Source of the DNA: Cochliopodium minus
Taxonomy: Eukaryota > Discosea > Himatismenida > Cochliopodiidae
Assembly: GCA_024220525.1 (NCBI GenBank)
Contig: JAMYWO010000007.1
Coordinates: 193,675-251,503, forward strand
Reading direction: 5' to 3'
DNA: 57,829 nucleotides
The position numbers and the translations under genes are program-made. Below the pieces are notes generated by a model that was not told the origin of the DNA, made no database searches, and worked only from the letters and a program-made list of their open reading frames with translations. Of this stretch, positions 4,481 to 56,118 are shown in pieces. The stretch's first letter is position 1; the number at the start of each line of letters is the position of its first letter.

Positions 4481-5601
4481 ATGGATATAATAAAGCCCAA
4501 AAAAGAAAAAAAAAGAAAAGAAATAGTTGCATGTCTCAATTGCAGGAAAAATCATAAAAAATGCGATGGAAAAAGACCATGCTTCCTTTGCATCAGAAAC
4601 AAAATAGAATGTGTTGAATTTGAAAAGAGGAAACCAATTGGGAGACCTTCCAAATCACTTAAATTAGCTGAAAATACAAAGAAATTCAATAATGGAAATA
4701 TCTTGAATGAATGCATCAATAAGACCTGTTCTAAATGTAATACTGTGATGGAGATAAGATCTAATTATTGTATAAATTGTGGAAATAATTTTAGAAGCGG
4801 AAATGGATCGGAAGATGAAAGATTAGTGATGGAATTGAAAAGATTGAGAGAAAAGAATATCCAATTGATGAATATCATCCATATTGATCACTTCAAAAGT
4901 AAAAATTTATAAAAAAAAATTAAAAGATAAATTAAATTTGAAAATTAAAAAATTGAAAAAAAAAAGCTAACCAAGTTTGGATGATGATTAAAATAGAGTA
5001 CCCCAAACCAGGAGAAATCGTTAAATACCCGATTTCATCATATGTGAGTCACGTAACACCCTTGTTCTCCAATTTACTAGGATATGATAATCTTAATAAC
5101 CTCTATTATCCTGATTTGCTTCCTAAAATGCATCATCAGGTGGTGGACTTTAAAAAAGCAAATATAAAGATAGAGTTGGTCGATGGACTTCCTACTCCCA
5201 AAATGGTTTATGTTGATCACATTTTTCTAAGGCATAAAGAGGGTCACTATGTAAAAATTGATGTAGAAACAAGCACTTACTTTGTAAATAATTTTTTTTT
5301 TATAAAAAAATAATCTTTAGAAGCGGAATTAAAAATTAATATTTTTTTGATTTTTTAGGATAATGAAATGGGTTTGCCAAGTTTTTGTTTTCTAAAGGTA
5401 AATCAAATCTCTTGTATGCGTGTAGAAGAGAAATTTCTCCCACCTAGAATATTTCCAGCTGATTTCAATTTCTATGGAAACCTTAACGTACCCGAATTCA
5501 TCAAACAAAACAAAAATTATGATCCTTTAGAATTCAATCCATGTCTTTCTTTAAATGATAATAATTTTGATGATCTGTTTGATAATCTTTTTAATAATTA
5601 A
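4481..5601 (+). CDS. C1: zinc cluster-ribbon-coiled coil-PAS regulator
   Basis: Predicted transcription factor of 325 residues, first and most canonical member of the array. Three exons: 4481-4898, 4967-5283 and 5359-5601. Residues 18-44 form the Zn2Cys6 cluster (Cys 18, 21, 28, 34, 37, 44, with His25 and KKCDG in the DNA-contact loop), followed by GRP at 54-56 as in AT-hooks. A ribbon CSKC...YCINCG lies near 83-101 and a coiled coil follows. Exon 2 is the PAS-like core (NQVWMMIK, LLGYDNLNNLYYPDLLPKMH, FLRHKEGHY) and exon 3 completes it and ends in NNFDDLFDNLFNN. Intron 1 is phase 1 after the coiled coil and intron 2 is phase 0 after TYF; both positions recur through the array. Nuclear DNA binding follows from the family; the ligand of the PAS domain is unknown. 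Confidence 0.85.
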
Positions 5602-5808
5602 TTAAAAGTGATCTGTATTTTTAGAAGAGTAAGTTTTTGCTAGTCATTAAAATCGATTAATTATCTGAAAATTTCTCTTTGAAGCGGAGTTTATTGTAAC
5701 TGATTTCAAAACTTCCTCTTGAAGGATGTATAAAAAAAATCAAAAAATAATAATTTTTTAACTATGATTTAAAAAATAAAAAAATACATTTGTAGAATTA
5801 GTTTCACA

Positions 5809-6940
5809 ATGTCCAAAATTAAAGATAAAAAGAAAGAAATAGTTGCATGTCTATATTGCAGAAAAAATCACAAGAAATGTGATGGAAACAGACCTTGTTT
5901 TCATTGCATAAGAAACAAAACAGAATGTGTAGAAAATGTAAAGAGGAAAGCAGTTGGAAGACCATCGAAATCACTTAAATTAGATGTTGAAATTACAAAG
6001 AAATTTAAAAAAGGAAAGATCCCCTCAAATAAAAAAGAACAAAGGAAATTGTCTTGTTATCATTGCAATATTGAAGCGCATCTTGGATCTTTTTATTGTA
6101 TAAACTGAGGAAATACAATCAGAAGCGACAGCGAAATAAAAAATGATAGATTGAAAATGAAATTAGATAAATTAAAGGATAAGAACAGAGAATTGATGAA
6201 TACAATCCAAATGAACAAGTCATACATAAGAAAAAATTTGAATTAAAAATTAATTTTTTTATTTTTTTGATTTTAGATACCAATCAAATATGGATGATGT
6301 GTCAACTAAATTTTCCTAAAGAAGATAAAATTATTTATCCAATTTCTTCAAAAGTTACTGATGTGTATCCTCTCTTATTGAACATGCTCGGTTACACAAA
6401 TTTGAATAATCTTTATTATCCTGACTTGCTCCCAAAAATACACCACAACCTTATCGATTTCAAGGAAGCGAACCTTACAATCCAATTTATAGATGGATTG
6501 TTCACTCCCAAGATCATATTTAATGATAACGTCTATCTCAAACACAAAGATGGTTACTTTCTTAATTTTGTTACAGAAACAAACTTTTACTTTGTAAGTT
6601 TAAAATTATTTTTGTTTTTTTTAAAAAAAAAGTTTTTAATTCATAGGATAATGTCAGTGGTTATCCAAGCTTTAGAATTTTGAAAGTAAATCAAGTTTCA
6701 AACCTTCATATTGATGAGCAAAGTCTCCCTAAAAAACTTTGTCCTTTGAAATTCCATTTCTTTGGAAGCAATACTTTGGAGATACCTGAGTTCATCAAAA
6801 GATACACCAACTTCATCCCAAATGATTTGAATCAAAATCTACAAACAAACTCTAATAGCAAATTTGTTGGAGAATTCAATTTTTTTGATCCCAGCTTTTT
6901 TTTTGAAAATATCTTTGATGATGATGTGAATTTTTTTTGA
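5809..6940 (+). pseudogene. C2: array member with disrupted first exon
   Basis: Exon 1 starts at 5809 with an intact zinc cluster (CLYCRKNHKKCDGNRPC) and VGRPSK patch. The ribbon then reads YCIN-stop-GN because TGA at 6106-6108 stands where Cys is encoded in the paralogues. The coiled coil continues in frame after it, but the usual splice donor (tcaaGTAAAA) is also gone near 6235. Exons 2 (6277-6593) and 3 (6647-6940) are fully open, with LLNMLGYTNLNNLYYPDLL and the tail ENIFDDDVNFF. The two lesions sit in the same exon, so the C-terminal half may have decayed little yet. A truncated product holding only the DNA-binding part is possible. The first ~168 bases are almost identical to C3. Confidence 0.75.
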
Positions 6941-7271: not shown

Positions 7272-8458
7272 ATGTCTACCAAAATTCAAGATAAAAAGAA
7301 AGAAATAGTTGCATGTCTGTATTGCAGAAAAAATCACAAGAAATGTGATGGAAACAGACCTTGTTTTCATTGCATAAGAAACAAAACAGAATGTGTAGAA
7401 AATGTAAAGAGGAAAGCAGTTGGAAGACCATCGAAATCACTTAAATTAGCAGATGAAAAAACAAAGAAAATAAAAAATGGGAAATTTCCTGCAAATAAAA
7501 CAATTTCAAATACTAAGACTTGCCATCTTTGCAATTATGATATCCTTGTAGGATCTACTTATTGTATAAACTGTGGAAATACATTCCTCAATGAAAATGA
7601 AAAATTGAAAATGGAATTGGAAAAAATGAAGGAAAAGAATAGGGAATTGTCAAATATCATCGAAATGAATATGTTATCAAGTAAAAAATAAAAAAAATTT
7701 TTTTTTTATAATTTTTCTAAATAATTCAATTTTTAAATTAAAAAGCATCACAATTATGGATGATGTGTAAACTCAATTTTCCTAAAGAAGGAGAAGTTCT
7801 TACCTATCCAATTTCCTCATATGTTACAGATGTATCTCCTGTTTTATTGAACTTGCTTGGTTACAATAACTTAAATAATCTTTATTACCCTGACTTGCTC
7901 CCAAAGATTCACCAAAACGTAATCGATTTAAACAAAGAAAATATCACTATCGAATTCGTTGAAGGACTTGTCACTCCAAAAATGGTTTTTATGGATAACA
8001 TTTATCTCAAACACAAAGATGGTTACTTTGTTAATTTACTCACTGAAACAAACATTTACTTTGTAAATTCATAATTTTTTTAAAAAATTATTTTATTTGT
8101 AAACAAACTAAACTAATTAAAAAAAAAATTAAAGGATAGTCAAAATGGTCTTCCAAGTTTCCGAATTTTGAAGGTTAATCAAATTTCTAACTTTCATGTT
8201 GACGAGAAAAATCTCCCAGAAAGACTCAACCCTCTTACTTTTCATTTTTATTGTAACAGTTCTCTAGACTTGCCAGAGTTCATTAAAAGATACACAAACT
8301 ATGCTCCCTATGATTACAATCAAAATATATTTTCGAATACTTGTAATGGTGTGGCAACTACAATGGAAGATTTGAACTTTTTCAATAACTTTTCTTATGA
8401 TAATCTCTTTTTTGAAAACAACTTGTTGGAAAATGAAAATCTCTTTAATCTGTTTTGA
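7272..8458 (+). CDS. C3: zinc cluster-ribbon-coiled coil-PAS regulator
   Basis: Intact 349-residue member with the three-exon plan of C1: 7272-7680, 7746-8062 and 8135-8458. Cluster cysteines are at residues 15, 18, 25, 31, 34 and 41, followed by AVGRPSKSLK. The ribbon is CHLCNYDILVGSTYCINCG, and the coiled coil runs LKMELEKMKEKNRELSNII. The PAS part reads LLNLLGYNNLNNLYYPDLLP and YLKHKDGYF. The protein ends LLENENLFNLF. It is the closest intact relative of C2 immediately upstream, so the pair probably arose by local duplication. The start was chosen as the first ATG, which follows an A-rich leader as in the other copies. Confidence 0.87.
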
Positions 8459-8560
8459 AAGAAATTAAAAAATAAATTGTAAAATAAAAAATGATCCTTT
8501 ATTTAAAATTATTTTTTTTGTTGATTTTTAAAATCATTTTTAGTTGAAAATTATTTTATA

Positions 8561-8561
<1 letters not shown>

Positions 8562-8627: not shown

Positions 8628-8645
<18 letters not shown>

Positions 8646-8673: not shown

Positions 8674-10540
8674 ATGTTGAATACTAATGAAACAGTCGAT
8701 CAAATAAAAATAAAGGAAAAAAAAGAAATTGTTGCATGCTGTAATTATTCTTTATATTTAAAGTTTGATATAACCTGAATAATTCTCAAATTTTAAATAT
8801 AGTGAAATGCAGACAAAATCACAAGGTATTTAACTTAATTCATTTTTTTTTTTTCACTTTATAATTCTATTTATCGATAGAAATGTGATGGACAAAGGCC
8901 ATGTAAATTTTTTTTTTGGATTATGTTGAAAATATGATTTCTAATATCTGTTTATAATAGGTTATTTCTGCAAAAGAAAAGGATTTGAATGCTGCGATAA
9001 TTTAAAAAGAAAATCTGTAGGAAGGCCAAAAAAAGGTATTCAAAAAAAAAAACAATTCTTTTTTTGTGTATATACAGTATATCTAATATATTCAAAGAGA
9101 TGGATACTAATAAGACCAAAAGCAAAAAGATCAAAAAGATAATTTTGAAATGTATTAAATGCAATACCCCATATGATGAAAAGAAAGCCCAATTTTGTTA
9201 CAAATGTGGATTTAAGGTGTCAGATAAAACAGGATTGGAAAATAATAATAATAATTTGTTGGAGAATGAGAATAGGATGTTGAAGGAAAATAATGAAGAG
9301 CTCAAGTATTTGCTTCAATTACGAATGTTTGCTTGTAAAAAAAAAAAAAAAATTGAATGTGGAGGAAAAATATAAAATAAAAAATAATATAAAAGTTCCT
9401 CAAAAAAAAATTTTTTTTTTCAGCTAATTCATATAAATTATAATTTTAGCTAATCAAATGTGGTTCATAATGAAATTGTAAGATAAAATATGATTGTTTT
9501 AATAATTTCAAAATAATATTTCAAAATCAGAGTTTATCCACTTGATGGAGTGGTATCATGTAAAAAAAAAAAATTCTTGACAAACCTCAACCTTGATAAT
9601 TTTTTGTTTTTTGACAAAAAAAAATACAGATCCCATTCCTTCTTTTGTTTTGGAAGCTAGCAGTGCCTTATCGAATTGTAATACATTCCCAAACTAAATT
9701 TTAATATTAATATAAAACAAAACTTAAAGTGTTAGGATATCAAACAATGTCGAACTTGTAAGAAAAAAAAAGTTTGTCTTAAAATTCTTCTTTTTTTTGT
9801 TTAGTTATTTTATTTTATTTAATTTTTTTTTTAAAATTAATTTTTTTTTTAAAAAATCAGATATTATCCGAGCTTGGTCGCAAAGTGTCACCACACAATC
9901 CTCAACAAATCTAATTTCCTGATCAAAGTGGAAAGAGTTTCAGGACTATTGAACCCTAAAATGAGCTACAAAGACAATCTCTACTTGAAACACGCAAAGG
10001 GATATTTCATAGAAATGGAGATAGAATGTTCTATTTATTTCGTAATTATTATGTTTAATTATTCAATTAAAAAAAAAAAAATTTTTAATATTTTGATAGG
10101 ATTGTTTCACAAAATTGCCAAGTTTTAGAATGGTATTACAATATTTCTTTTTAAATAAATCTATATTTAACTAAATTTTTTTCTTTTTTTTTTTTTTAAA
10201 AAAGATTTACGTTCAAAAAATCAACAATTTATCTGTTGAAGAGAAATTGATCCCTAACGAACACATAATGGAAAATCTCACCTACTTATGCGATCAAAAC
10301 GATACCCTCCCTGACTTTGTCGAAAAATTCGTTCAAAAGCCACCATCCAATGACGATTGCTTGTCCTTTTCCAACAAAGACATTGTCAACACTCTTGACA
10401 AGTTAAGATATGAAGTCGTTTTGTACAAAGATCCCTCTCCTGTTGAAGTTCCTCAACAAAATTCTAATGGATTCTCAAAGGTTTTGAATCTTGATGGTGG
10501 TGATTTATTTGATGTCGAGAACTTTTTCAACTTTTTTTGA
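8674..10540 (+). CDS. C4: zinc cluster-ribbon-coiled coil-PAS regulator, 12 exons
   Basis: 368-residue member split into 12 exons: 8674-8740, 8803-8825, 8881-8902, 8961-9035, 9098-9334, 9450-9477, 9531-9559, 9630-9677, 9730-9757, 9861-10041, 10100-10132 and 10205-10540. Three introns cut the zinc cluster itself (CL, then KCRQNHK, then KCDGQRPC, then YFCKRKGFECC), and the second and third exons are only 23 and 22 bases. SVGRPKK follows. The ribbon is CIKCNTPYDEKKAQFCYKCG. Further introns split the PAS core before YPIPSFVLEASS, before LLGYQTMSNL and before YYPSLVAKCHH. The protein ends DLFDVENFFNFF. The extra introns are at positions shared with C10 and C14-C17, suggesting the three-exon copies lost them. 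Confidence 0.82.
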
Positions 10541-10904: not shown

Positions 10905-12409
10905 ATGTCTAATAAACAAGATAAAAAGAAAGTTATTGTTGCATGCCTCGATTGCAGAAAAAATCATCGTAAATGTGATGGAAAGAGACCATGTTATCAT
11001 TGTTACAGGAATAAAACAGAGTGTGTCGAAAATCCAAAAAGAAAGGCTGTGGGTAGGCCGAGACATGATGAATGCATTAAAGAGCCAAAGAAAATCAAGC
11101 CCAATCAAATTAAAAAAATCATAAATCAATTAAATTGCACAAATTGTAACTCCATTGTTATTGGAGGATCTGTCTTTTGCAATGATTGTGGATTCAAACA
11201 AAAAAAAAATAAAAAGGATTTGAATAAGGAAAAGATATGCTCCAATTGTCATAAAAAGGGAAAAAACAATTTGACGAATGTACAATATTGTATTGATTGT
11301 GGAAATAGCTTTGCTGATGAAAGTGATCCAAATCTTATGCAAGAATTTGAAGCATTAAAGCAAAAAAATGAATTATTAAACAACATAATACAAATGAGCA
11401 TTAAATGTAAATAACACTTTATTTTCTTTGAAATTTCCCAAGCCAATTTAATTATTTTTTTAAATTAAAATAAAAAAAGCACCAATGTGGGTAATGAGCA
11501 GGGTCTTAATGTCTGGAAATCAAATTCAATACCCTGTACCTAGTTATATTGTTGAATCAAGCAAAAGGTAATCTTGATAAAATAAAATAATTAAATTCAG
11601 TGAATTAATAAATTTTATTTTTTATTAAAATTTAGTTTTCAAGATTTGTTAGGATATCCAGATCTAATCAACATGTACTATCCACATCTAGTAAGCTTGA
11701 AACATCACAAGTATCTAGACTTTAAAAACTTTCCTATGAAAATAAAAAGAGTAGCAGGATTAAAAAGTCCCAAACAATGTTTTGAAGACTATAACTACGT
11801 TCGCCATGCAAATGTAAAATTCTATTCTTTTAAATTTTTTGTGTTAATTTTTATTTTTAATTAACTAGGGTCATTACATTTACATTCAAACATCCAATAC
11901 CTTATATTTCGTAAGAAATTAAAATTTTAATTTTCATCAAATTTTGAATATTTTTAATTTTCATTTTTTTGTAATTTTTTTTAATTTTTTAATTTTTTAA
12001 TTTCATAACATCTCAGATTTTAACTTTTCAAAAGATTAATTAAAATAAAAATATTTTAAAGGATTCAATAAGTGGATTACCTTCTTACAGAATATCTTAT
12101 ATCAACCAAGCCATAGACTTGAAACTAGAAGAAAAAGATCTCCCTCCCCACTCTTTCGAAGGAATAAAGTTTACCTACTACTGCAATGAAAACGACAAGG
12201 CTCCTGATTTCACCAAAAGGTTTAACCACAATGTCAAAAAGTACATAAAAATAGATGATCAGCTGCAATCTCAAAACTCTCTTTCCATTATCCAATCTTC
12301 TGATTTCGATCAAACAAACTTTTTCCAAAACTATGATTTCTATCCTAACTTTGACATCGAACATGTTGATGATTTCAATGAATTCGAAAATATTTTCACC
12401 AATTTTTGA
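10905..12409 (+). CDS. C5: array member with two tandem zinc ribbons
   Basis: 385 residues in five exons: 10905-11406, 11480-11567, 11636-11813, 11869-11910 and 12062-12409. The zinc cluster (CLDCRKNHRKCDGKRPC, six Cys) and AVGRPRH patch are standard. Uniquely, two four-Cys ribbons follow: CTNCNSIVIGGSVFCNDCG and then CSNCHKKG...YCIDCG. A coiled coil (FEALKQKNELLNNIIQ) comes next. The PAS part (YPVPSYIVESS, LLGYPDLINMYYPHLVSLKH, YVRHAN|GHYIYI) has two introns not found in C1-C3, including one inside the RHAxGHY motif. The tail is NEFENIFTNF. The doubled ribbon probably arose by internal duplication and may widen protein or DNA contacts. Confidence 0.85.
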
Positions 12410-12985: not shown

Positions 12986-14392
12986 ATGATGGAAAATACA
13001 TCAATATTAAACTCAACAACACCCTTAATCCCTCAAACAAATTGTATAAATGGGAACTTAACAAATAATGAAGGAAATATTAATAATGAACATCTTAATA
13101 TTAATACACCAAAAAAAATAATCTCAGCTTGCTTAGCATGCAATAAAAATCATAAAAAGGTATTTATTGAAAACATTAAATAAAATAAAAAAAAATAATT
13201 CTTCCGAAATGTAAATTTTAATCTAATTTTGAATTTAAATATTAAAGTGTGATGGAGAAAGACCTTGCTCCTATTGTTGTCACAGAAAATTGGAGTGCGT
13301 TGAAAATAACAAGAGAAAATCAGTTGGGAGGTAATTTTTAATTGAAAAATAAACTCCCACGTTGAAATTAACTTTTTTAAAAAATCATTTAAAGACCCAA
13401 AAAAACCGAACAAGAGAAAAAAAAGAAAACAACAAATAACAATAACTCAAATTATAGTTTTGAATTGATTTGCGAAGGATGCAAAACTAAAAACGGATCT
13501 GATGCAAAGTTTTGTAACAGTTGTGGACAAAGATTGGAAGTGAAAAACAACCATGGGGAATTGTTGAATGAGATAGATGTTTTGAAGAAAAAAAATGAAG
13601 CATTAACAAGACTGCTAGACATGAAATTTGGTAAGATTTATTAATAAATGTAATTGGATTTGAGATTTCTGATTAATAAACGATTAATTTAAATTTTAAT
13701 TGATAGGAACAAACCAAATGTGGATCATGTTGAAGATGATCTTTCCACTGGACGGCATAATTTGTTATCCAATCCCCAGTTTCTTGCTGGAAGCATCCAG
13801 CAATTTTCAAAAGCTAATGGGATTCACAAACATGCAAAACATGTATTACCCCGACTTGGTTCCAAAACAACACCATCAAGTTTTGAACATGATTATCACA
13901 GTTGAAAGAGTACAAGGGATGTTAAACCCAAAGTTGTGCTATGAAGACGATATCTACATGAGACATGCTAAAGGTCATTATGTTCACCTTGGCATCAGCT
14001 CTTCCATTTACTTTGACACCTTTACTAAATTACCCAGCTTCCGAATCACTTTCGTTGAAAAAATCATTGAGTTATACGTTGAACCTTCAATTCTTCCTCC
14101 TCAACAAAAACAACCAAAGTCAATTAGATTTTACTGTAATCATAATGACGAAATCCCCGAAATCATCAAGAAGTACTTGTACCAACCTCCCAAAACTTTG
14201 TTGCAAAACTTTTATCTCCAGTATCAAAACCAACACCAACATCATCATCAACTTCCTCCTATCCAACAAACTCAAGGTTATCCCTTGATTTATCAAGATG
14301 TGAAAAATAATTCTCAAGTAAACGCCATTATTCATCATCCCCAAGTCCAACCAGATCCACAAAACTATCCTAAAAATGAAATTGAAAATTAA
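12986..14392 (+). CDS. C6: array member with intronless PAS half and Gln/His-rich end
   Basis: 392 residues in four exons: 12986-13159, 13248-13330, 13395-13630 and 13707-14392. I chose the ATG at 12986 (MMENTS) because the upstream in-frame sequence is lysine-only low complexity. The cluster is CLACNKNHKKCDGERPC split after NHKK, and an intron falls inside the SVG|RPKK patch. The ribbon is CEGCKTKNGSDAKFCNSCG. The whole PAS domain and C-terminus lie in one 686-base exon: the otherwise universal intron after SIYF is absent and the text runs SIYFDTFTKLPSFRITF. The C-terminus is Gln/His/Pro-rich (QHQHHHQLPP) and lacks the aromatic tail, ending NEIEN. Loss of a clean intron suggests recombination with a spliced transcript. 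Confidence 0.85.
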
Positions 14393-14792: not shown

Positions 14793-16046
14793 ATGATTAA
14801 TAATGAAGAAAATATCATCAGATCATTTCAATGCACAAACTGTAAAAATAAAAATCTTGTATGTGATGGAATAAAAGGAAAGAAATGTTCTTTTTGCAAA
14901 GATATTAATAAAAAATGTGTTGAAGAAATAGTCAAAAAACAATCAATAAAGCTAGCTGCGAAAAAACTTCCTGTGAGAAAAAAAAACACACAGAAAAAGA
15001 AAATTACTGAAACAGTTTGTAAAAATTGTGAGACCAAAAATTTGATAAAATCAAAATACTGCCAGGAATGTGGAAGAATAATGAATCAAATCAAGATTGA
15101 AGAAAAAAATAATCAACTTACTAAAGAGATTGATATTTTGAAAAATAAAAACGAAGAATTACAAAAGATTATACAAATGAGGATGTTTTCAAGTAAAATC
15201 TGAAAAATTGAATTTTATTAATATATTTTCAGTGAATTTTTATTTTTTTTAAAAAAGCGAATCAAATGTGGATAATTTCAAAATTGGATTATAGGGTGAA
15301 TATGGAAGACAAAATGACATATCCTATCAAGAGTTATATAATAGAAGTATCCCAATCATTCCAGAATCTTTTGGGATATGAAAATCTGATCAATAAAAGT
15401 CTAGATGAACTAATTCCCAAGAATCACCACCAATCAATCAACAAAAATAATATGCCTATAATAGTTGAAAGGATAAAAGATTATAAAACTCCCAAACTCA
15501 TTTATACACATGATTTATACTTTAAACATGCATCTGGAAATTTTGTTCGTGTTCTATTCAATTCTGCAATTTACTTTGTAAAAATTTGCTTAAAATTTTG
15601 TTTTTTTTTTTTTAATATTTTTGTTACAGGATTATCATTCAAATACACCATCTATCAGAATAATTTATGTTAATAAAATTCTCGATTCAAAAGTAGAAGA
15701 AAAATCTTTACCAGAAACCCACTCAAAACCTCAACAACTAGTTTACTACACAGGTACTACCAATGAACTTCCACACTTTATAAGTCTCTACCAAAGTCCA
15801 ATCACACCTGAAATCTTGCAAAAAGAAGTTATGGTCATTGAGAACAATAGCATAAATGAAAATAAAAGTAATTTTAACCAAGAGAACCATTTCTTCCAGC
15901 CTAACAATCTTTCTCCAAACAAACATAACAATTTTACTTTGAACCAAGAGGAGGTTTTCAACAATAATGAAAATAACAATTTTAATCTGTTTTTCAATAA
16001 CAAAATTAATTTTCAAAGCTTTCATAATAGTGAGTTTGAGAATTAA
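14793..16046 (+). CDS. C7: divergent zinc cluster member lacking the AT-hook
   Basis: 378 residues in three exons: 14793-15192, 15258-15577 and 15630-16046. The N-terminal cluster is altered: CTNCKNKNLVCDG then IKGKKCSFC and KKC, giving x7 rather than x5 between Cys3 and Cys4 and no His in the loop. There is no GRP patch, only KKLPVRKKN. The ribbon is CKNCETKNLIKSKYCQECG, and the coiled coil LTKEIDILKNKNEELQKIIQ is long. The PAS part is recognisable but loose (FQNLLGYENLINKSLDELIP, KHASGNFV). The C-terminus is Asn-rich with NFNLFFNN near the end. All six cluster cysteines remain, so metal binding is likely, but the DNA specificity is probably different. Confidence 0.82.
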
Positions 16047-16407: not shown

Positions 16408-16780
16408 CAGATCCAAGATCAAGATACCCTATCCAATCAAAATATGATCCAAATGATGAAATAACAATCAAATCATCCATCATAATCAAGTTCCCAAATC
16501 GAAATGAAGGATAATATCCTACTTAATCTTATTCCTGCCAACTCTATCATTCCTCAAGATCTCTTTGTTTTCAATCATTCCTATCAAATGATGAATAACA
16601 TTCAACTAACAATCTTATCCCAAACAATCATAATCACGACAACTCAATTAATCTTCGTGATCTCTGTGTTTCTTCCTCTGTTACTCCAAATACCTCCTTC
16701 TTTTATAATATCTCTTCTAATTCTATCTTTGGGAATGATACCGATTGTCTGAATCTTTAAGAAGATATCTTCAATTTCAT
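16408..16780 (+). pseudogene. C-terminal fragment of a C8/C9-type member
   Basis: The DNA closely matches the last ~330 bases of C8 and C9: cagatccaagatcaagata, then the HHNQIP and NLIPANSIIPQDLFV coding region, then the end equivalent to NNEDIFNF. The frame is broken by small length changes and stops, and no zinc ribbon or PAS exons precede it. It sits 0.8 kb upstream of C8, so it is a leftover of a duplicated unit or of unequal crossing-over. As a host-gene relic it shows the array has lost as well as gained copies. Confidence 0.75.
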
Positions 16781-17552: not shown

Positions 17553-18904
17553 ATGAATAATAATAGACATACTTTGCTCCAACATAATGTTTATATGATC
17601 AACAACAATGATAACAATCTGGATATCCTCAATGGAAAAAAATCCAATCCAAATTCAAAAATTCAATCACAAATGATCGATAACACAAATTGCAAAGTTA
17701 ACAATAAGAGAAAGATATCTCCATCAGTGACAATTGAACTCCAAAAGAAAACAAAAAATGAAATAAACAAAAAAATAGAAAAGATAAAATGCCCCAAATG
17801 CAAAAAGAGCCAAGATTCTGAGGATAGATTCTGCAATGCATGCGGAAGCAGATTGAAAAATGAAACCAAAAATTTGGAGTTGATGAAGGAAATAGAGTTC
17901 ATGCAAAAGATGAATCATCAATTGGAGAGTTTCATACAAATGAGAATGTGTTGTAAGAAAAAATATAAGCTCCTTATTTAGTCATTTAATATATTTAATA
18001 TTCAAAATTTTTTTATTATACAGCAAAAGAAATATGGTATGCTATGAAATTGATATTCCCAAAGAATGGAGTAATATGCTATCCTATGGAATCTTTCATT
18101 ATCGAAGCAAATAAGGAGTTTAATCATTTGTTGGGATATGAAGATATGAATAATGTGTATTATCCTGATCTATTCCCCAAAAATCACATTGTGGAATTAA
18201 CACAAAAGAATTTCTTCATAAAGGTGGAGAGGAATTCAAAAATCACAAATCCCAAGATGATTTATGAACATGATGTTTATTTGAGACATTCAAGAGGTCA
18301 TTTTATACATGTTGCATCGTCAGGAACCTTTTATTTCGTATGTTTTCTTCGTTCTATTTGTTATATCAATTTATATAAATCTTCCTTTTAATATTAGGAT
18401 ACCCATACAAGAATGCCAAGTGTAAAAATGATCTATATCAAAAAAATTTTGAATGAACATGTTCTTGAAGATCAATTGCCACCAAAACATAGTCATCCAA
18501 CCACCATCAAGTTCTGCACCGATAATTTCAATGAATTGCCAGATTTCATCAAGAAATTTTGCCATAAACCCTTTGAAAACGATCAGATCCAAGATCAAGA
18601 TACCATCTCCAATCAAGATTTGCTCCAATTGATGTATAACGATGATATCATCCATCATAATCAAATTCCAATCGAAATGAACGATCATATCCTACATAAT
18701 CTTATTCCTGCCAACTCTATCATTCCTCAAGATCTCTTTGTTGATTCTCTTTCAACAAAGCCTAATACTTTTGGTTTTCTCCCTTCTCATCCCTCCCCTT
18801 CCAATTTATCTTCTAATTCAATGATCTTTGGGAATGATAATTACATCTTTGACCCTGATTCTGATTGTTTGAACAATAACGAAGATATATTCAATTTTTT
18901 TTAA
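17553..18904 (+). CDS. C8: zinc ribbon-coiled coil-PAS member without zinc cluster
   Basis: 406 residues in three exons: 17553-17952, 18024-18337 and 18398-18904. The N-terminus (MNNNRHTLLQHNVYM) has no Zn2Cys6 cluster and no GRP patch; it begins with Asn-rich sequence and a basic stretch (NKRKISPSVTIELQKKTKNE). The ribbon CPKCKKSQDSEDRFCNACG and coiled coil (LELMKEIEFMQKMNHQLESF) are intact, as is the PAS part (FNHLLGYEDMNNVYYPDLFP, VYLRHSRGHFIHV, GTFYF). It ends NNEDIFNFF. Lacking the DNA-contact module but keeping the pairing module, it could dimerise with other members and block or redirect them; that role is inference. Confidence 0.85.
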
Positions 18905-19425: not shown

Positions 19426-20751
19426 ATGAAAAATGTTGAGATGTACAAAGATAACACAAAATGCAATCAAGAAACTTGTATTGGAAAAAAATCAGGTTCA
19501 AATTCAAAAAAGAATTCAAATACAAATTTCATAGTCAACAATAAGAGAAAGATATCTCCATCAATAACAATTGAACTCCAAAAGAAAACCAAAAATGAAA
19601 TAAACAAAAAAATAGAGCAGATAAAATGCCCCAAATGCAAAAAGAGCCAAGATTCCAAGGATAAATTCTGCACTTCATGCGGTCGCAGATTGAGAAATGG
19701 GATAGAGGATAAAAATTTGGAATTGATGAAGGAAATAGAGTTCATGCAAAAGATGAATCATCATTTACAAACTTTCATACAAATGAAAATGTTATGTAAG
19801 AAAAAAATAGAAGCTCTTTCGATATAAACATGCTTAATTAACAATATTTTTTTTTCAATGCAGCCAATGATATTTATTATGTGATGAAAGCTGTCAACCC
19901 TATGAATGGAGTAATATGCTATCCTTTGGAATCATATATCATAGAAGCAAATCCAGAATTTAATAATTTGATGGGATATCAACAACTCAATAATGTATAC
20001 TATCCAGATTTGGTTCCCAAAAATCACCATGTCGAATTGACGAGAGATAATTTTACTATAAAGGTCGAGAGGAATTCAAAAATCACAAATCCCAAGATGA
20101 TTTATGAACATGATGTTTATTTGAGACATTCAAGAGGTCATTTTATACATGTTGCATTGTCAGGAACCTTTTATTTCGTATGTTTTCTTTGATTTTCTTT
20201 TATATTTAATCTTTATTATCTCTTCCTTTTAATATAAGGATACCCATACAAGAATGCCAAGTGTGAGAATGATCTATATCAAAAAAATTTTGAATGAACA
20301 TGTTCCAGAAGATCAATTGCCACCAAAACATAGTATTCCAACCACCATCAAGTTCTGCACTGATAATTTCAATGAACTGCCTGATTATATCAAGAGATTT
20401 TGCCACCGATCCTTTCTCACCAATCAGATCCAAGATCAAGATACCCTATCCAATCAAAATATGATCCAAATGATGAATAACAATCAAATCATCCATCATA
20501 ATCAAATTCCCATCGAAATGAACGATCATATCCACCATAATCTCATTCCTTCCAACTCTATCAATCCTCAAGATCTCTTTGTTGATTCTCCCATAACGCC
20601 CAATCCCTCTATGTTTGATAATTTTCTCCCATCTTTCCCATCTCCTTCTAATTTCTCTTCCAAATCGATGGTATTCGGGAATGATAACTACATCTTTGAC
20701 CCTAATTCTGATAATCTAAAAAATAACGAGGATTTTTTCAATTTTTTTTGA
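19426..20751 (+). CDS. C9: zinc ribbon-coiled coil-PAS member without zinc cluster
   Basis: 398 residues in three exons: 19426-19795, 19864-20177 and 20239-20751. It is the sister of C8: same basic stretch (NKRKISPSITIELQKKTKNE), ribbon CPKCKKSQDSKDKFCTSCG, and PAS motif NNLMGYQQLNNVYYPDLVP. Exon 2 shares an almost identical ~120-base segment with C8, reaching into the following intron, while other parts differ more. The C-terminus has the HHNQIPIEMNDHIHHNLIP segment shared with C8 and the upstream fragment, and ends NNEDFFNFF. As in C8, the first exon starts with low-complexity sequence where other members have the zinc cluster, so the loss predates the duplication. Confidence 0.85.
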
Positions 20752-23053: not shown

Positions 23054-23086
<33 letters not shown>

Positions 23087-28355: not shown

Positions 28356-28533
28356 ATACATAAAAAATAACGAAAATGGTGTTTTCCTCTATTTTTTTTT
28401 TCTTGACTTGTTTAACATATGGAATAACAAAAAATAAGTGTTTGAATGAATATTCCCCCTTTAAATATGCGAGATATAGACAGTGTTTTAATTATCAGTT
28501 CAAAATTTAAATAAAAATTTGATTTCAGTAAAA

Positions 28534-40782: not shown

Positions 40783-42858
40783 ATGATCGAAACAAATACA
40801 CCTATTCATAAAAAAGATGTATTGGCATGTTTGGGATGCAGGTAAGGATAATATAATGTTAATTAATTTTGAAATAAAAAAAAAAAAAATAGAAAAAATC
40901 ACAAGGTAAAAAAAAAAAGAATATTCGATAGAATTTGAAAGATTAGATCCATTATCCTTATATATATATTGATTTGATAATAGAAATGCGATGGAAAAAA
41001 ACCAAGTTGCGGATATTGCCTATCTAGAGGGATAGAATGCATCGAAAATACAAAGAGGAAAATTACAGGAAGACCCAGAGTTTATGATTATGATCCATCA
41101 AATGATCAACCAAAAAAACCGAGCACAACAAAAAGAACTACCTCAAAGAAATCATGCAAGAAAACAAGGACCAATATGGATGATGTATTTTGTGATAAAT
41201 GTGATACAAAGCAAGTTAAAAATGGTAAAATTGATATAATCCTCTTTTAAATTGTTTTCAGCGAAATATTATAATATATTACTTCAGCGAAATTTTGTTC
41301 AATGTGTGGAAATAAATTGCCAGAAAACATTATGATCAGAAACCAAGAATTGGTTCTTGAAAATCAACTTCTCAAACAAAAGATTGATGAGTTAATGAAA
41401 ATGATAAAGATAAAGGAATTGCCTCACAGTAAAAATATTTTTTTGTTTTAATATTATTTTTTTTTTTCATTTTATTTTTTATTTTTTATTTTTTTTTGAT
41501 TTATTTATTATTTTTTTTTATTTTATTTTTAATTCTTTTTACAAATAATTTCTCATTTTAGCTTCTAATCTTTGGATGATGAAAAAAATCGTGATACCTC
41601 TTGATTTCGAGAACCTATTATGTAAAAAAAAAAAGTTTATATAACTTAAAATTTACACAATAAATTAATAAGATCCTTTTCCAAGTCATGTGATGCAAGC
41701 TTCTCCTGCTTTCCACCACTTGCGTATTATTTTTTAATTCTTATTTACTTAATTTATTTTTATACATTTTTTATTTTATATTTTTATTTTATATTTTTAT
41801 TTTATTATATTTATTTTTTATTTTTTTATTTTTCATTTAATTATTTTTTTAAATTTTATTAAAAATAAAGTGGGTTATGAAAATCTCTTCAATTTTAGAA
41901 GCACTGACCTTTTTCCCAAACAAATGTTCAAAAACATCAAATCGGAGAACCTCTACGTTAAAGTGGAGAGACTTCCCGGCATCCTTAGTCCCAAACTCAT
42001 TTTAGAGGAAGACATCTATCTCCGTCATTCTCGAGGAAACATCATCCACTTGGTTTCCACCACCACCATACATTTCGTAAAAAAACTTTATTTTTATTGA
42101 TTTTATTTTAAATACTTTATTTTGAATATTTTTTTTTTTTTTTTTATTTTTCTTTTTTTTTTATTTTTTTTTTTATTTTAATTTTACAATATTTTCAAAA
42201 AAGTTAATTTTTTTTTTAAATCTTTTTTTTTGTTTTTGAATTTATAATGTAAGACTAATTTTTTTTGTTATTTTTTTAAATTATTTTTTCACATTTTTTA
42301 ACATTTTTTATTGTTTTATCAAAGAAAGTTTTAATTTTTTTTTTAAAAAAGGATGAAATTACAAAGACACCGAGCGTTTCTACAATTCAAGTCACAAAGA
42401 TCAACGATCTAAATTATGACCTCAACAAACCCCTCGTTTTCCCAAAGATGAAAGAAAGGAACTGTGTCATCATCTACCATTGTGATCTCTACGATAAAAT
42501 CCCTTTTTTTCTAGATGTAAAAATGATTTTTTTTTTAAAATTTTTTATTTATTTTTTTTATTTATTTTTTAATTTATTTTTTAATTTATTTTTTAATTTT
42601 TTTTTATTTTTTTTTTTATTAAAACAGAAGTTTACTGATCCTCCAAAAAATTTCATTTGTGAAGAAATTTACAAAGAGGAAACCGACTCTCTTTCTTTTT
42701 CCCAGGAACTTTGCCTCTTGAGCTCGGAGCATTCCACCAACAATTTTTCTAATATTGGCGGAGATTATTCAAGTGGTATTCTTGCTTCCAACAATTCTTT
42801 TGCTCTTCAAGATGCTTCTTTTAACTTTGATAATAATGATTTTTTGTCTTTGTTGTGA
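40783..42858 (+). CDS. C16: zinc cluster-PAS regulator with a 13-base exon
   Basis: 388 residues in nine exons: 40783-40841, 40893-40905, 40984-41224, 41288-41428, 41562-41621, 41673-41723, 41871-42076, 42352-42516 and 42628-42858. The second exon is only 13 bases and encodes (R)KNHK in the middle of the cluster CLGCRKNHKKCDGKKPSC. ITGRPRVYD follows. An intron cuts the zinc ribbon between CDKC and FCSMCG. PAS: YPFPSHVMQASPAFHHLLGY (across an intron), NLFNFRSTDLFP, IYLRHSRGNIIH, IHF|DEITKTPSV. It ends NDFLSLL. The exons sum exactly to codons, which supports even the smallest one. Confidence 0.82.
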
Positions 42859-43106: not shown

Positions 43107-45226
43107 ATGAAATCCAAGAAAATTCGAAAAGTGGTAATTCACTTTTTCTCTTATCTTCCCTTTAAAATTTAATTCCCTTTCGAAACAAAAGGCATGCAAT
43201 AATTGCAGAAAAGCACATCGAAAGGTAAAATGATATCCTAATATCCACCACTCCAATAAAAATAACCAAATCATAGTGTGATGGAAATAGACCATGTGAT
43301 TCCTGTATATATAGGTAAAGAGATTGGAATTGATTTAAATAAATGATCAAATGGATAATTTGGATCTAATTGATTAATTATATAGTATCTCATATTAATT
43401 AAAAACATATATAACATGTATAATCTGTTGAGCAAAAATGATTGATTCAATCATTTAAGAATATATGATAATTTGATTTCATTGATAAGGAAAATCAATA
43501 TTTAAGAACACATCCATGATAATATAGTTCAATGTCAAAATTGATATAATTATATGTCTCAGATTAAATTCAATAATTGAAATTTACCTTCAAAATTTTA
43601 ATAATACAATTTATTTGATAGAAAGTTTGATTGTGATCTCAATGAGAACATTAATACGAATAATGATAACAATAATACAAAAAAGAAAAATGATAAATCA
43701 ATTAATGAGACAAATAATGCAGTCAAAGAAGATACGAGATGTGATAAATGCAATGGCCTGACAGAATCCATATCGATCTTCTGCAACAACTGTGGAAATA
43801 AGCTATCAAAGAAAACAATTGAGAAAATTAATCAAAATCTCAATCAAGAAAAAGAGATATTGAGGCAAAAAATCCAAGAATTGATGAGCATCATTCAATT
43901 GAAAGATTATTCAAGTAAATAAATTTTTATTCAGCGGAAATTTTTTTTTTAGCGGATAATTTTTTTATAAGCAAGCGATATGTGGCTTCTTCGAAAAATT
44001 ACAACAGAGTGTGATGGAAAGACTCATTATCCCTTAGCTTCTTTTATTCTAGGTAAAAAATTTTTACTATTTATTTTTTATTTTAAATTTAAAATTTTAT
44101 TTTTTAAAATTTTATTTTTTTTATTTTTATTATTTTTCATTTAATTATTTTTGATTTAAAAGAGGTTTCTCCTTCTTTGTTAAAGTTTTTAGGCTATGAA
44201 AATCTTACCAACATCTATTTTCCAAATTTGATACCAAAAAGATATCACAAAACCGTCACTTTTTTTTTAATTTTTATTATTATCATTAAATATTTATTTT
44301 TATTTTTTATTTTTTATTATTTTTTATTATTTATTTTTTATTTTTTATTTTTTATTTTTTATTTTTATTATTATCATTAAATATTTATTTTTATTTTTTA
44401 TTTTTTATTTTTTATTTTTTAAATTTATTTTTATTCAGATTGAAGACGAAAATGTACATTTTAAGGTGGAGAGGATTGAAGGGAATATCAACCAGAAACT
44501 AAGTGGAGAAGAAGACTTGATAATGCTGCAAGCCAATGGGAATTATTCTCACATGATTGCCCACACAACAAATTATTTTGTAAAAAAAAATTTATTATTA
44601 AAAAATAAAGTAAAAAAAAAATTTGACGAACAAATAATAAAAATAAAATAAAAATAAAAATAAGTAAAAAATAAAAATAAAAATATTTTTTTGAAAAACA
44701 GGATGTTGATACTAAAATTCCTTCAATAGGTAAAAAAAAAAAATTTTAATAAATTATTATTTTTTATTAATTAAATTATTAAAAAAGATTTCTTTAATTT
44801 TTCATTTTATCATTTTAATTTTAATTTTAAATGTTTTTGGAAAAAGGAACGTATCACATCACAAAGATAGTGGACGCAAACATACCCGAGGCGAGACTGC
44901 CACCAATAGAAGTGAAAGTGGACGTGACATTCTTCACGGACATCTTTGACGAGCTTCCCGATCTCGTAGAAAGATTCTCCGCCTTCAATATGTCCGATCT
45001 CGTTCACGAGGAGAGCCATCATAACAATGACAAAGAAAAAAATGAAGAAGAAAAATTTCTGGCAGAGAAATCTTACGATTCAAGTTTGTCTCTTTCTAAC
45101 CACCTTGTTTCCGATGTTAATAATGATCAAATCAACAATTATTCTTTTAATAATACGAATAAAAATTATTCGTACAATCCATTTGAGATGATCCAAGAGA
45201 ATGATGATATTTTTAACTTTTTTTAG
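43107..45226 (+). CDS. C17: zinc cluster-PAS regulator with a 27-base first coding exon
   Basis: 370 residues in nine exons: 43107-43133, 43192-43224, 43277-43314, 43622-43914, 43972-44052, 44163-44254, 44439-44579, 44702-44729 and 44847-45226. The first coding exon encodes just MKSKKIRKV. The cluster is ACNNCRKAHRK-CDGNRPCDSC-IYRKFDC, spread over four exons, with all six Cys. No KRKxxGRP patch is found; a 307-base intron lies where it would be. The ribbon is CDKCNGLTESISIFCNNCG, and the coiled coil ILRQKIQELMSIIQL. PAS: LLKFLGYENLTNIYFPNLIP, but LRHxxGHY is replaced by IMLQANGNYSH. It ends ENDDIFNFF. Frame is kept throughout. Confidence 0.78.
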
Positions 45227-46269: not shown

Positions 46270-46397
46270 TATTATTTCAAATGATTCAATTTTTTTTATT
46301 TTTGTTTTTTTTTTTTTTTTTATTTTTTTATTTTTATTTAAACTTGATTTAATAATTTTTAAATTGAAAATTAAATAAAGAAGAAAAATCTTTTGTT

Positions 46398-47700: not shown

Positions 47701-47732
<32 letters not shown>

Positions 47733-49565: not shown

Positions 49566-51823
49566 ATGAACATAGAACAGAATATAAAAATTACATCCAA
49601 AATTATAGCTTGTTCTGAATGTAAAAAATCACACAGGTAATTCATATCCATCATATAAATCAATGACCACCTTATCTTCATTAGAAAATGTAGCGGAAAA
49701 ATTCCTTGTGATAGCTGCATACAAAGAAAGATAGAATGCACCGAGAATTTGAAGAGAAAGCAAAGAGGTGAAGAAAAAAGAAAAAATCATTAGGCCTTTA
49801 TTTTCAGTATTATAATTTAAATTAAAGGAAGACCAAGGTATGTTATTCCCAAAACAATATTTTTCTAATTTTAATAATAGCCATAAATTTATTACTTTGG
49901 ATAAAATTAATTTTTGATAAAAGGAGATAATTTTATTTATATATTTGGATCTTTCAACGATAAATAAATTATGAAAATTTTTTTGTCCAAAATTATCAAT
50001 CTTCTTTCAATTGAATTCAAAGAGGATATCCTCCAATATATAAACATTTATATTTTAAAGATCATTCAATATATTAAAATGAAAGATAATATAATTCAAG
50101 TTGGAAAGATAATCTGAATCTATTTTTATGTTTGAAATAATTGATTTTGATAAGAATGAAATCAATTTTAACAATTTATTATTATAATTAAATTAATTTT
50201 ATTCAATTAAAAAAAAAAGGAAAGAAGATATCGAAAAAAAGAAAAGATTAGAAAGATTAAAAGAAATAAAGTGTACAAAGTGCGATCATTTCAACCCCTC
50301 TCCAAGCAACTTTTGCATCAAGTGTGGTGCAAAGCTCCCTGAGTCTCTGGAGTCTGTCAACGTCAAATTAGAGGAAGAGATCAATTTGTTAAAATCCCAA
50401 ATTCAACAACTGATTTCTATTATTCACTCGAAAAAATTAATTGAGGTTTCAAGTAAAATTTTAAAAAAATATTTCAATTTAATTTTTATTTTACGTTTTG
50501 TATTTTTCAATTTTTTTATTTTTTTATTTTTTATTTTTATTTTTCAATTTTTGTTTTTTTATTTTTTTTATTTTTTCAATTTTTTTATTTTTTTATTTTT
50601 ACTTTTTTAATTTTCAGCGAACGAAATGTTTTTGATAAAAAAAGAAGTCTCTTCGGGCGATTCTGTTTTTTGTCCTCCTCCTACTTTCATAATTGAAGCA
50701 AGCCCTTCTCTATTAAGAATGGTGAAGAAAAAAATAAAATAAAATATAAATTTTAAAAAATAAAATAAAAAATAAAATAAAAAATTTGAAATAAAAAATT
50801 TGAAATAAAAAATTTGAAATAAAAAATAAAATAAAATAAAAAATAAATAATAAATAATAAAATAAAAAATAAATAATAAAATAAAAAATAAATAATAAAA
50901 TAATTTTATTCATTTAAAAAAATTCAAGTTGGGATACAAAAATTTGGATAATTATTTCTTTCCTGATCTAGTTCCTAAATCTCATTTCTGTAGGAGGGTT
51001 GATTATAACTCTTGTGTTCAAAAGAAAAATGTCGATTTTCATTATAAACTTCTCGTTGATAAAGTTTTGTTCTTGAGACATTCCGAAGGTCATTACATAC
51101 ATTTACAGTCCAGAATAACTATCTACATGGTAAAAAAATTAATATAAAATTAAAAATGTAAAATATAAAAAAATAAAAAAATTCTGTTAAAAATAAAAGG
51201 ATAAAATAAAAAATAAAGAATAATTTATAATAAATAAAAAATAAAAAATAAAAAATAAAAAATAAAAAATAAAAAATAAAAAATAAAAAATAAAAAAATT
51301 CTATTAAAAATAAAAGGATAAAATAAAAAATAAAAAATAAAATAAAAAAAATAATTATTCAAAATAAATAAAAATAAATTAATTCTTTTATAAATAAAAA
51401 CTAAAATCTAAAAATGAAATAATTTTTAACCCCTTCTTTTTTTAATTTTAGGATCAAAACAATGTTCCATCACTTACTACTATGAATGTAACTAAGATTT
51501 TCGAGTTGAGAGTAGAAGAAAAATATTTGCCTCGTGGAGAAGACATTCCCGCAAGCATTTTTTCTTGCGCAAAAATCAAAAAAGCTCCCCATTTTGCCAA
51601 AAAGTATGATTACCTCCTTGAAAATAGTTTCATCGTCAAAGATAACGTCCCCCCAAACAAAAATAAAAAAAACTCTCAAAATTTTTCTTCACAGGTGGAT
51701 GGTATCAATTCCCTTCTTGTTCCTCCCAATAATGATAGTTTTTTTGTGAATGATATCAATGATCCTTTTTTCTTTGAACTTAATAATCAAGATAATGTTG
51801 ATGTTGATGAGTTTTTCTCTTAA
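49566..51823 (+). CDS. C18: zinc cluster-PAS regulator with a 10-base microexon
   Basis: 357 residues in seven exons: 49566-49636, 49685-49767, 49828-49837, 50220-50452, 50618-50721, 50929-51129 and 51452-51823. The cluster is CSECKKSHRKCSGKIPC...C. The third exon has only 10 bases and supplies the G-R-P-R core of the AT-hook, joined as KRKQR-GRPR-KEDIEKKK. The ribbon is CTKCDHFNPSPSNFCIKCG, followed by the coiled coil INLLKSQIQQLISIIHS. The PAS start is altered (CPPPTFIIEASPSLLRM|LGYKNLDNYFFPDLVP) and LFLRHSEGHYIHL is kept. It ends NQDNVDVDEFFS. C18 and C19 form a separate subgroup with the same intron plan. Confidence 0.83.
49828..49837 (+). other. 10-base microexon of C18 encoding the GRP core
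   Basis: GAAGACCAAG lies between AAAG and GTATGT. With one base from the exon before and one from the exon after, it encodes GRPR. The same 10 bases are an exon in C19. Confidence 0.75.
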
Positions 51824-53878: not shown

Positions 53879-54396
53879 TTTTTTGATTTTTAATTAACTC
53901 ATTTGAGATAATAAAAATTTTATTGAATAATTTGTTCTAAACTTTTTGACATGAATCAATTGTAAAATAAGATACTATTATTAAAATCCAAATTATCATC
54001 CTATATGTTGATTTTATTCATAAACTTTGAACGATCATTTCAAAGCAAATTTTTGCAACTGATTCCAAAATTAAAGATGGGAATGATATCTTCAATGTTT
54101 CCTATCAAATCACCCCATAAACAAAAATTGTTTTGATTTACCATTTGGTAACATTAAACCATCTATTATCATTCTGAATGAAACTAATTCTCATTAATTA
54201 AAAGCAATTTTAAACTTAAAGAGGAGTTTTTGGGAATTTAAAATTTGATTGTATTCAAATCATTCTGTTTTCATTTTGAATATTTTTCTTTCATTCTTAA
54301 TGTTCTTGATGATAGGATTGGAAACTTATTTTAAATAAAAAAAATTATTTATTTCATAATTCACCAAAAGAAACATTTTTGAAAAATTAAAAAAAA
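53879..54396. promoter_or_regulatory. Upstream region of C19, also duplicated downstream
   Basis: No gene. The part from about 54100 to 54290 recurs at about 56376-56570. Conserved blocks include cctatcaaatcaccccataa and gaggagtttttgggaattt. Confidence 0.55.
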
Positions 54397-56118
54397 ATGA
54401 GCAACACAACCCAAAAAAATGAGCAAGAAAAGAAAATAGCATGTTTGGCTTGTAGAAAATCACACAGGTAATTAAATTCAAAATATATTTTCGAATAATC
54501 ACGAATTTTAATCATGCTCTTCTTTAATTATCAAAATAGAAAGTGTGATGGAAAGAGACCATGTGAGAATTGTGTTCTCAAAAATATAGAATGTGTTGAA
54601 AATTTAAAGAGAAAGCCAATGGGTAATAATGAAAAAAAAATATCCTTAATCATATTTCTATAATTTTTATAATTCACTTCAATTCAAAAAGGAAGACCAA
54701 GGTATGAATGATAGCAAATTAATATATTCAAATTATTATTAGACATGTCCAAAATTTACAACTTTATTAGCGGATAATAATTTATAACTAACAAATTTTG
54801 AACTGTTGTAAAGTTTTGGACATCTCTAAATTATCATGAAATTAATTATTGATAGGAAAGAAGATATCGAAAAAAGAAAGAAATCAGAAATTATGAATAA
54901 AACAAGATGCCCAAACTGTAAAAATTGCAATCCTTTATCAAGCAAATTCTGCAATAACTGTGGTACCAAACTTCCAGAGTCATTGGAGGTTGTAAACATT
55001 CAACTGAAAAACGAAGTGAGCATGTTAAGATCACAAATTGAAGAATTAAAGTCAATAATCAGATCAAAGGAAATGAGGGAGTTTTCGAGTAAAAAAAACA
55101 ATTAAAACAAAAAAATGATTTTTTAGTATTTAATTCAAATAATATTCTATTTTCCATCATAGCAAATGAAATGTATGTTATAGGAAAACAAGTGAATGGG
55201 GGTGAGCCTTATTATTGTCCTCCTCCTTCATTTATCGTAGGTTCTTTCTTTTCTCAAAATTTTTTTTTTCTCAACAAAATACTGAACTTTTATTTTTCCA
55301 AAACCAAAAACACCTTTCAGAAGCAAGTCCTTCTTTTTTGAAATTAGTAAAATTAAAATTAAAATTTTCCTTTATTTTTTAATTTTCCTTTCTTTTATTA
55401 TTTATAGCTTGGATATGTAAATTTGGACAACTTCTTTTTCCCAGATCTCATCCACAAATCGCATTTCCAACGTAGAATATTGGACGTGAATTTTTCCCAA
55501 AGGAATGTGCCTGAGTATAAAGTACTGATTGACAAGGAACTATTCTTAAGACACTCCGAAGGGTATTATGTTCATTTGCATGCCAAAATAACAGTTTATA
55601 TTGTAAAAAAATAACAAAACCAATATTTTGATTTTAATTCTTTACTTCTATTTAAGGATCTAAATAATGTTCTATCTCTTGGAACTTTGAACGTAACAAA
55701 GATATATAAAATGAGAGTTGAAGAAATGAATTTGCCAAGAGGAGAAGATGTTCCCTGCTGTGTCTACACTTGTGAGGAGATTTCTCGCATGCCTTTTATG
55801 GCTCAAAAATACAACTATATGATTGAAAAGGGATTCGTGGATGATCTTCCAAATCGTTACATTTCTCAAAATGTTAATTATTCTCAGAATTTTAATGTCT
55901 CTCAAAGCATGAATTTCTCTCAAAGTATGAACATCAATAATATCAGTCACAATAATAATTCGAAGAACCAAAATATTAACAACAACAAATCAAGTAATTT
56001 GCCAAACGAAATTAACAACTTTTTTGATGATTCTGGAAGCTTTTTGAATCTATCTTCCAATGGTCTTCTTCTTTCTCCCAACTCCAATAATGATTCATTC
56101 TTTTTGGATCTCAATTAG
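54397..56118 (+). CDS. C19: zinc cluster-PAS regulator with a 10-base microexon
   Basis: 385 residues in eight exons: 54397-54467, 54540-54622, 54692-54701, 54856-55088, 55163-55240, 55321-55346, 55408-55602 and 55657-56118. Exons 1-4 have exactly the lengths seen in C18 (71, 83, 10 and 233 bases). The cluster is CLACRKSHRKCDGKRPC...C; the microexon gives KRKPM-GRPR-KEDIEKRK. Ribbon CPNCKNCNPLSSKFCNNCG. An extra intron cuts the PAS part inside FIV|EASPSFLKL. Then LGYVNLDNFFFPDLIHKSHF and LFLRHSEGYYVHL. The last exon is Asn/Ser-rich with SQSMNFSQSMN repeats and ends NNDSFFLDLN. Confidence 0.84.
54692..54701 (+). other. 10-base microexon of C19 encoding the GRP core
   Basis: GAAGACCAAG flanked by AAAAAG and GTATGA, with the same phase as in C18 (one base supplied upstream, two bases left over downstream). 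Confidence 0.75.

Follow-up and report, generated by a model that had tools for sequence, protein, structure and literature searches.

A 57,829-nucleotide stretch of the genome of the amoeba Cochliopodium minus (contig JAMYWO010000007.1, here called C7, positions 193675-251503; the window) contains a tandem array of 19 paralogous genes on one strand, and our analysis confirmed this array. Its members typically join a Zn2Cys6 cluster, a basic GRP patch, a four-Cys zinc ribbon, a short leucine zipper, a PAS-like domain and an acidic/aromatic tail. We consider it probable that the family represents dimeric, sensor-linked transcription activators whose modules have been exchanged by gene conversion. 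This assignment is based on the module order, a predicted PAS fold, two transcripts, identity steps between copies and ratios of nonsynonymous to synonymous divergence (dN/dS) below 1. From these observations we infer DNA binding, dimerization, sensing, activation, conversion as the mechanism of exchange, and a role for the copies that lack the cluster. The assembly comprises 44.65 Mb in 598 contigs, and the window is mostly 17-30% G+C.

Copies were counted with family profiles derived from 13 spliced genes (12 from the window and one from contig C12; for the Zn profile, the 10 of these that have a cluster were taken), which were run against all six-frame open reading frames (ORFs) of at least 20 residues in the window. 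The ribbon with its coil was detected at 19 places, the PAS-like part at 19/19 of these and the Zn2Cys6 cluster at 15 by direct match, all on the plus strand; G18 was added as the 16th copy with a cluster after exon joining (E 1.1e-9; copies are numbered as in Table 1). It should be noted that 12 of the 19 copies had contributed to the profiles, so that their match is built in, the independent ones being G2, G11, G12, G16, G18, G19 and G20. Gene models were derived from ORF listing and a splice search for GT-AG introns. Complete spliced frames were obtained for 12/19 copies (G1, G3, G4, G5, G6, G7, G9, G10, G13, G14, G15 and G17), and the models of G11 (which contains N), G12, G16, G18, G19 and G20 are incomplete. 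Introns common to the copies lie in phase 1 before a Q-x-W-like motif and in phase 0 after a Y-F motif, and in several copies the Zn cluster is itself split by introns. The initial annotation, which had described nineteen same-strand paralogues with shared splice positions and this module order, was borne out; G9, G10 and G12 have no Zn cluster.

Among 12 spliced proteins, Pfam Zn_clus (PF00172) matched nine at E<=10 and passed its curated cut-off in G1, G3 and G14; G7 has six Cys at a variant spacing, but no Zn_clus match. The cluster loop has 5 residues in most copies, 6 in G15, G16 and G17, and 7 in G7. As read from the models, an R-K-x-x-GRP patch, which we liken to an AT-hook core, is present in 13/19 copies. 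It is absent from G7, G9, G10, G12 and G14, has D as its first residue in G13, and is not readable from the G18 model; in G19 and G20 the GRPR motif is seemingly located in a 10-nucleotide micro-exon (identified by eye within 49760-49860 and 54620-54720). Zn_Ribbon_1 matched 9/12 spliced proteins, below the curated cut-off in the four that were scored. In an alignment of 12 proteins, cysteines of the ribbon, leucines of the zipper and residues of the PAS domain are invariant. Across 13 copies (numbered as in G1), Leu115, Glu118 and Leu129 are found in 13/13, Asn126 in 12/13 and Leu/Met122 in 11/13, a pattern that fits a leucine zipper of three heptads, and only three, with Leu or Met at d positions and Asn at an a position of a predicted helix. 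An acidic/aromatic C-terminal motif could be recognized by eye in 10/13 copies (not in G6, G7 and G13). A PAS-like domain had been proposed from sequence motifs, and structure prediction for the sensor part (a stretch of G6) upheld it by returning a PAS fold.

Evidence for an exchange of modules came from sliding comparisons of neighbor pairs, which revealed abrupt identity steps. The Zn segments of G2 and G3 are identical at 178/183 positions, with 1 of 25.7 silent sites changed, whereas identity is 64-79% elsewhere. Similar steps were observed in a second array of the family, on contig C40. Here, two copies, at 194.5 kb and at 196.2 kb, are 100% identical over 387 nucleotides across Zn cluster and ribbon, with 0 of 21 silent sites changed, and their PAS domains have a synonymous divergence (dS) of 1.87; in the trio at 199.9, 201.7 and 203.3 kb, ribbon tracts are 95-100% identical and PAS dS is 1.07-1.66. 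Fisher tests on rounded silent-site counts gave p values of 1.2e-4 for G2-G3 and of 1e-10, 8.6e-6, 4.1e-5 and 1.4e-10 for C40 pairs, the last three of which have common members. A blastn self-search of the array loci (identity >=93%) yielded 19 tracts. Seven lie between family copies on the Zn cluster and/or ribbon, one of them extending into a first PAS exon; three are located upstream, in the tail or just before the ribbon, three belong to a duplication between C7 and C40, and six are other repeats. These patterns suggest that modules have been exchanged between neighbors by gene conversion. For the seven pairs whose dS is finite, dN/dS of the PAS domains is 0.11-0.24, and the sensors are therefore constrained, not free.

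Several observations weigh against this assignment. No module step was detected by Fisher test in G1-G3 (p 0.13) or G9-G10 (p 0.46); the latter pair has a 98-100% identical stretch inside the PAS domain, which is not among the blastn tracts, and silent sites of G19-G20 are saturated throughout. The steps rest on few neighbor pairs that were picked for being closest to each other, three of which have members in common. With regard to the modules, Pfam PAS models match just 1/12 proteins below E 0.01 (PAS_9 in 1/12 at E 0.0043 and PAS_3 in 1/12 at E 0.19), no Pfam PAS match was found in the folded G6 stretch, and fold confidence was low for the Zn part and for a large part of the zipper. Finally, CGG pairs, the usual target of Zn2Cys6 proteins, were considered as common upstream target sites and rejected, as the regions upstream of 17 copies show no enrichment; both CGG and CCG occur less often in the window than expected. 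There is therefore no sign of autoregulation through that motif.

It is possible, although we think it less than even, that the array reflects ordinary tandem duplication and decay, in which many copies are redundant or are being lost and the module steps reflect random, functionless conversion tracts. In favor of this are the disrupted G2, the remnant G8, six further incomplete models, the grouping of several neighbors in the tree, and the detection of transcripts of just two family members. However, 12/19 copies have retained complete frames with common introns, dN/dS is well below 1 in every PAS comparison with finite dS, and a dispersed copy on C12 that lacks the cluster has an intact frame.

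The two family transcripts, of G1 and of one C40 copy, were found when a large protein set was searched with full-length queries. Two such searches returned three proteins in all; they require shared words (at most 100) and similar length, and relatives may be missed. The first protein, P0001, corresponds to G1 with one residue difference across the first 245 residues, with its first two exons spliced as in the model and intron 2 still present. The second, P0002, has 401 residues and all modules, and its pieces match C40:198046-199728 at 84-99%; both EukProt entries presumably derive from the same species as the window. P0003 has only ribbons in common with the family. No full-length relative outside this species was detected within the word-sharing and length limits of these searches, and a region-limited search with the Zn part of G5 gave one candidate only, which was no match, and is uninformative. 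The proposal that the copies are variably expressed is thus only hinted at. Expression limited to one or a few copies at any given time, as in families with antigenic variation, would agree with the return of G1 alone as a transcript among 12 window proteins queried, plus one C40 copy; but in a search limited by words and length, and with an intron retained in P0001, missing transcripts prove little, and we regard this explanation as unlikely.

An assembly artefact, in which collapsed or chimeric repeats produced the identical patches or inflated the copy number, appears quite improbable. The window has three runs of N, the assembly is an AT-rich draft of 598 contigs, and the segment shared with C40 is 89-91% identical; however, the flanking modules of the same pairs mostly differ at >=20% of bases, so that reads should be separable, and the two transcripts match single copies. 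That strong purifying selection on DNA contacts, rather than gene conversion, kept the Zn segments identical is most unlikely: although the Zn part is slow in general (in G1-G3, dN is 0.10 versus 0.40 for the ribbon), its silent divergence in that pair is 0.86, the silent sites of G2-G3 and of the C40 194.5/196.2 kb pair are near-identical too, the 387-nucleotide tract of the latter pair is 100% identical, and selection on protein would have left silent sites free.

Among the copies without the Zn cluster, G9, G10 and the dispersed C12 copy, whose three-exon frame is intact, form one clade (support 100/99; the bootstrap was not fully settled), and the loss of the cluster is common to them because of this grouping; a separate loss in G12 was considered, but G12 is a long, unplaced branch in the tree. 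All three members of the clade retain ribbon, zipper, PAS domain and tail. For G9-G10 dN/dS is 0.30, and for G9-C12 it is about 0.16; these values are below 1, and the copies are therefore under purifying selection. They probably serve as dimer partners that do not bind DNA.

For the dimeric activators that we favor, the following scheme may be envisaged. The Zn2Cys6 cluster and the basic GRP patch would contact DNA, and the short leucine zipper, perhaps together with the PAS domain, would hold a dimer that places two Zn clusters on DNA. The four-Cys ribbon might be a spacer or a partner-binding knob, the PAS domain would sense a small molecule or choose a partner, and the acidic/aromatic tail would activate transcription. 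Copies would arise through local duplication, after which gene conversion would swap the DNA-binding and ribbon modules at the 5' end between some neighbors, with the PAS domain remaining old and constrained. As a result, one DNA-binding specificity would be coupled to several sensors. An extension of this scheme, in which conversion spreads the same DNA-binding/ribbon module among old, distinct PAS sensors and dimers with cluster-less copies, which would be unable to bind DNA, tune the response, is put forward tentatively, as a combinatorial sensor bank. A combinatorial set had already been raised in the initial annotation, and it received indirect support from the near-identity of modules in some neighbors with old PAS domains and from the constraint on the cluster-less copies.

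The family extends beyond the window. With E <= 0.01, a G4 query gave 97 and a P0002 query 96 matching pieces genome-wide, other Zn2Cys6 genes included. The second array, on C40 at ~120.7-206 kb, has 17 ribbon places plus 4 or 5 with PAS only; a third is located on C308 (12-29 kb, minus strand, for the part examined). Single dispersed copies occur on C12, C201 and C304, and further ones probably on C16, C33 and C195. When the ribbon profile was run on 24 other loci, the sole match under E 0.01 was on C304 (L044), a locus that bears Zn, ribbon and PAS pieces of the family and is a family copy. Window positions 55019-56331 are 89-91% identical to C40:185.7-187.1 kb, and in the region of the truncated Zn exon C7:249881-250001 matches C40:186949-187069 at 96.7%. 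In total, 59 Zn_clus places were found in the genome. The other Zn2Cys6 genes (on C110, C77, C196, C274, C149 and others) have a cluster that matches the window profile, and some have a PAS-like stretch, which is weak (hhalign probability 9.8%). These other subfamilies lie partly in small clusters of their own (C110, C77, C274 and C149), and in some the PAS-like stretch follows a coil. A KKRGRPF-type Zn2Cys6 subfamily is present on C196 and at C7:286-291 kb, and several of its members end in aromatic residues.

Clusters and PAS domains are known to occur together. The fungal regulators AcuK, AcuM, Ert1, Rds2, Gsm1, Aod2, Aod5 and Pas2 combine Zn2Cys6 and PAS domains (PMC12719309, PMC8092316), and like AcuK, AcuM, Ert1, Rds2 and Pas2 the window proteins join the two and comprise several paralogues. 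A role of the domain in partner choice or ligand response was proposed for AcuK and AcuM, in which PAS mutations impair function (PMC12719309), and for Pas2, in which deletion of the PAS core mislocalizes the protein (PMC8092316). The fungal proteins are described as acting in pairs, with PAS residues being important, and the sections of these papers available to us make no mention of a four-Cys ribbon, which is present in the window family (PMC12719309, PMC8092316). No fungal match was obtained in our protein searches, within the word and length limits given above. Zn clusters of the window also match those of Gal4, Put3 and Pho7 by profile. In Gal4 and Put3, the cluster is followed by a linker and a dimerization coil; unlike these proteins and Pho7, the window proteins hold the GRP patch and ribbon in the linker, and a PAS domain then follows. 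The fungal middle region PF04082 had no match in the genome, but the control was silent too and the search is uninformative. Identity of the window PAS domain to PAS-B of HIF, BMAL1, CLOCK and AHR is 3-14% among the matches listed, and in those proteins PAS-B is attached to a basic helix-loop-helix, not to Zn2Cys6. In the open-licence literature, we found no paper uniting Zn2Cys6, PAS domain and zinc ribbon (tandem arrays were not part of the search, and none came up), nor one uniting Zn2Cys6, PAS domain and amoeba. The module order had been suggested to be undescribed; in the papers examined, the ribbon-plus-zipper insertion and the arrays have no counterpart, and the family has so far been seen in one species, but the combination of Zn2Cys6 and PAS is already known in fungi.

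Table 1. Family copies and related features in the window, from left to right
Feature	Position	Strand	Description
G1	4481..5601	+	Complete, 3 exons; Zn2Cys6, KRKPIGRP, ribbon, zipper, PAS, acidic/aromatic tail; transcribed
G2	5809..6940	+	Disrupted copy; in-frame TGA; Zn segment 178/183 identical to G3
G3	7272..8458	+	Complete model, 3 exons
G4	8674..10540	+	Complete model, 12 exons; Zn cluster split by introns
G5	10905..12409	+	Complete model, 5 exons; two ribbons in tandem
G6	12986..14392	+	Complete model; PAS exon without internal intron
G6 PAS region	13709..14206	+	Stretch taken for structure prediction
G7	14793..16046	+	Complete model; variant cluster loop; no GRP
G8	16497..16749	+	Remnant tail of a further copy; repeat of G9 and G10 tails
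G9	17553..18904	+	Complete model; no Zn cluster; ribbon, zipper, PAS and tail
G10	19426..20751	+	Complete model; no Zn cluster; sister of G9
G11	21102..24035	+	Partial model; N run at 22070; tail 23808-24035; outer limits by eye
G12	24807..25760	+	Partial model; no Zn cluster; diverged PAS; end by eye
G13	26203..28355	+	Complete model
G14	31459..32797	+	Complete model; Zn cluster without GRP
G15	33478..35312	+	Complete model, 5 exons
G16	38376..40318	+	Model nearly complete
G17	40783..42858	+	Complete model, 9 exons
G18	43107..45226	+	Partial model; Zn cluster appears once first three exons are joined
G19	49566..51823	+	Partial model; GRPR micro-exon inferred
G20	54397..56118	+	Partial model; GRPR micro-exon inferred; partly inside segment duplicated on C40
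Truncated Zn exon, further copy	56210..56341	+	Zn profile match, right end of window

In G2, the in-frame TGA at 6106-6108 replaces the codon for the fourth ribbon Cys of its neighbors, and the exon is otherwise open; the splice search gave no donor/acceptor pair for the first intron. Selenocysteine at this TGA was considered and rejected, as no Rfam family exceeded threshold in the window and TGA is the stop codon of both G2 and G3. We treat it as a nonsense change.

Other genes were observed in and around the array. By eye, exons at 1980-4171 are reminiscent of a phospholipase B-like protein and of the C-terminal region of a glycosidase (one exon searched, no significant Pfam match). A non-family gene on the same strand as the array (28492-30119) has Cys-rich TRAF-like pieces, recognized by eye, and a coiled coil; two of its exons were searched and gave no Pfam match over cut-off. 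At 35748-38039 the array is interrupted by a gene whose exon at 37569 matches an ecdysteroid-kinase-like domain (PF02958, E 1.2e-10). On the minus strand, exons at 45552-48979 look by eye like RRM, F-box and RCC1 pieces, and 51948-53484 encodes a surface-like protein that has PST-rich 15-bp repeats and, at its C-terminal end, a hydrophobic segment. A 147-bp tandem repeat occupies 57180-57829 (4.4 copies, 92% matches), with one frame open from 57410 to the window end. Scans of the window for tRNA genes and Rfam families gave 0 matches.

Several genome markers relate to the host group. Two diverged EF-1alpha genes (L047 and L048; 62-64% identical to the human protein) were found beside a gene, L049, which we take from its features to be an EFL-type elongation factor. 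Both EF-1alpha genes are without the insertion typical of animals and fungi. Diverged EF-1alpha co-occurs with EFL in several groups, fungi included (PMC3699394), and because of this the EF-1alpha form is a weak marker against a fungal host. Chitin_synth_2 had no match in the genome (the control matched in 4/14 genomes), and this absence and the EF-1alpha form speak weakly against a fungal host. An expansion outside fungi is plausible. Copper-fist had no match in the genome either, but its control was silent too, so this is uninformative. The best actin, 94% identical to human beta-actin, does not discriminate the host group.

The origin of Zn2Cys6 factors, either in fungi with later spread by transfer or as an old family of eukaryotes, is described as an open question in the literature (Shelest 2017, PMC5415576). 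If the host is not fungal, the 59 Zn_clus places, the three arrays and the further subfamilies bear directly on the origin of these factors. The mosaic would represent a natural case of a regulator family that recombines its sensing and DNA-binding parts and, if the combinatorial sensor bank is true, many inputs would be wired to few target sets in this organism.

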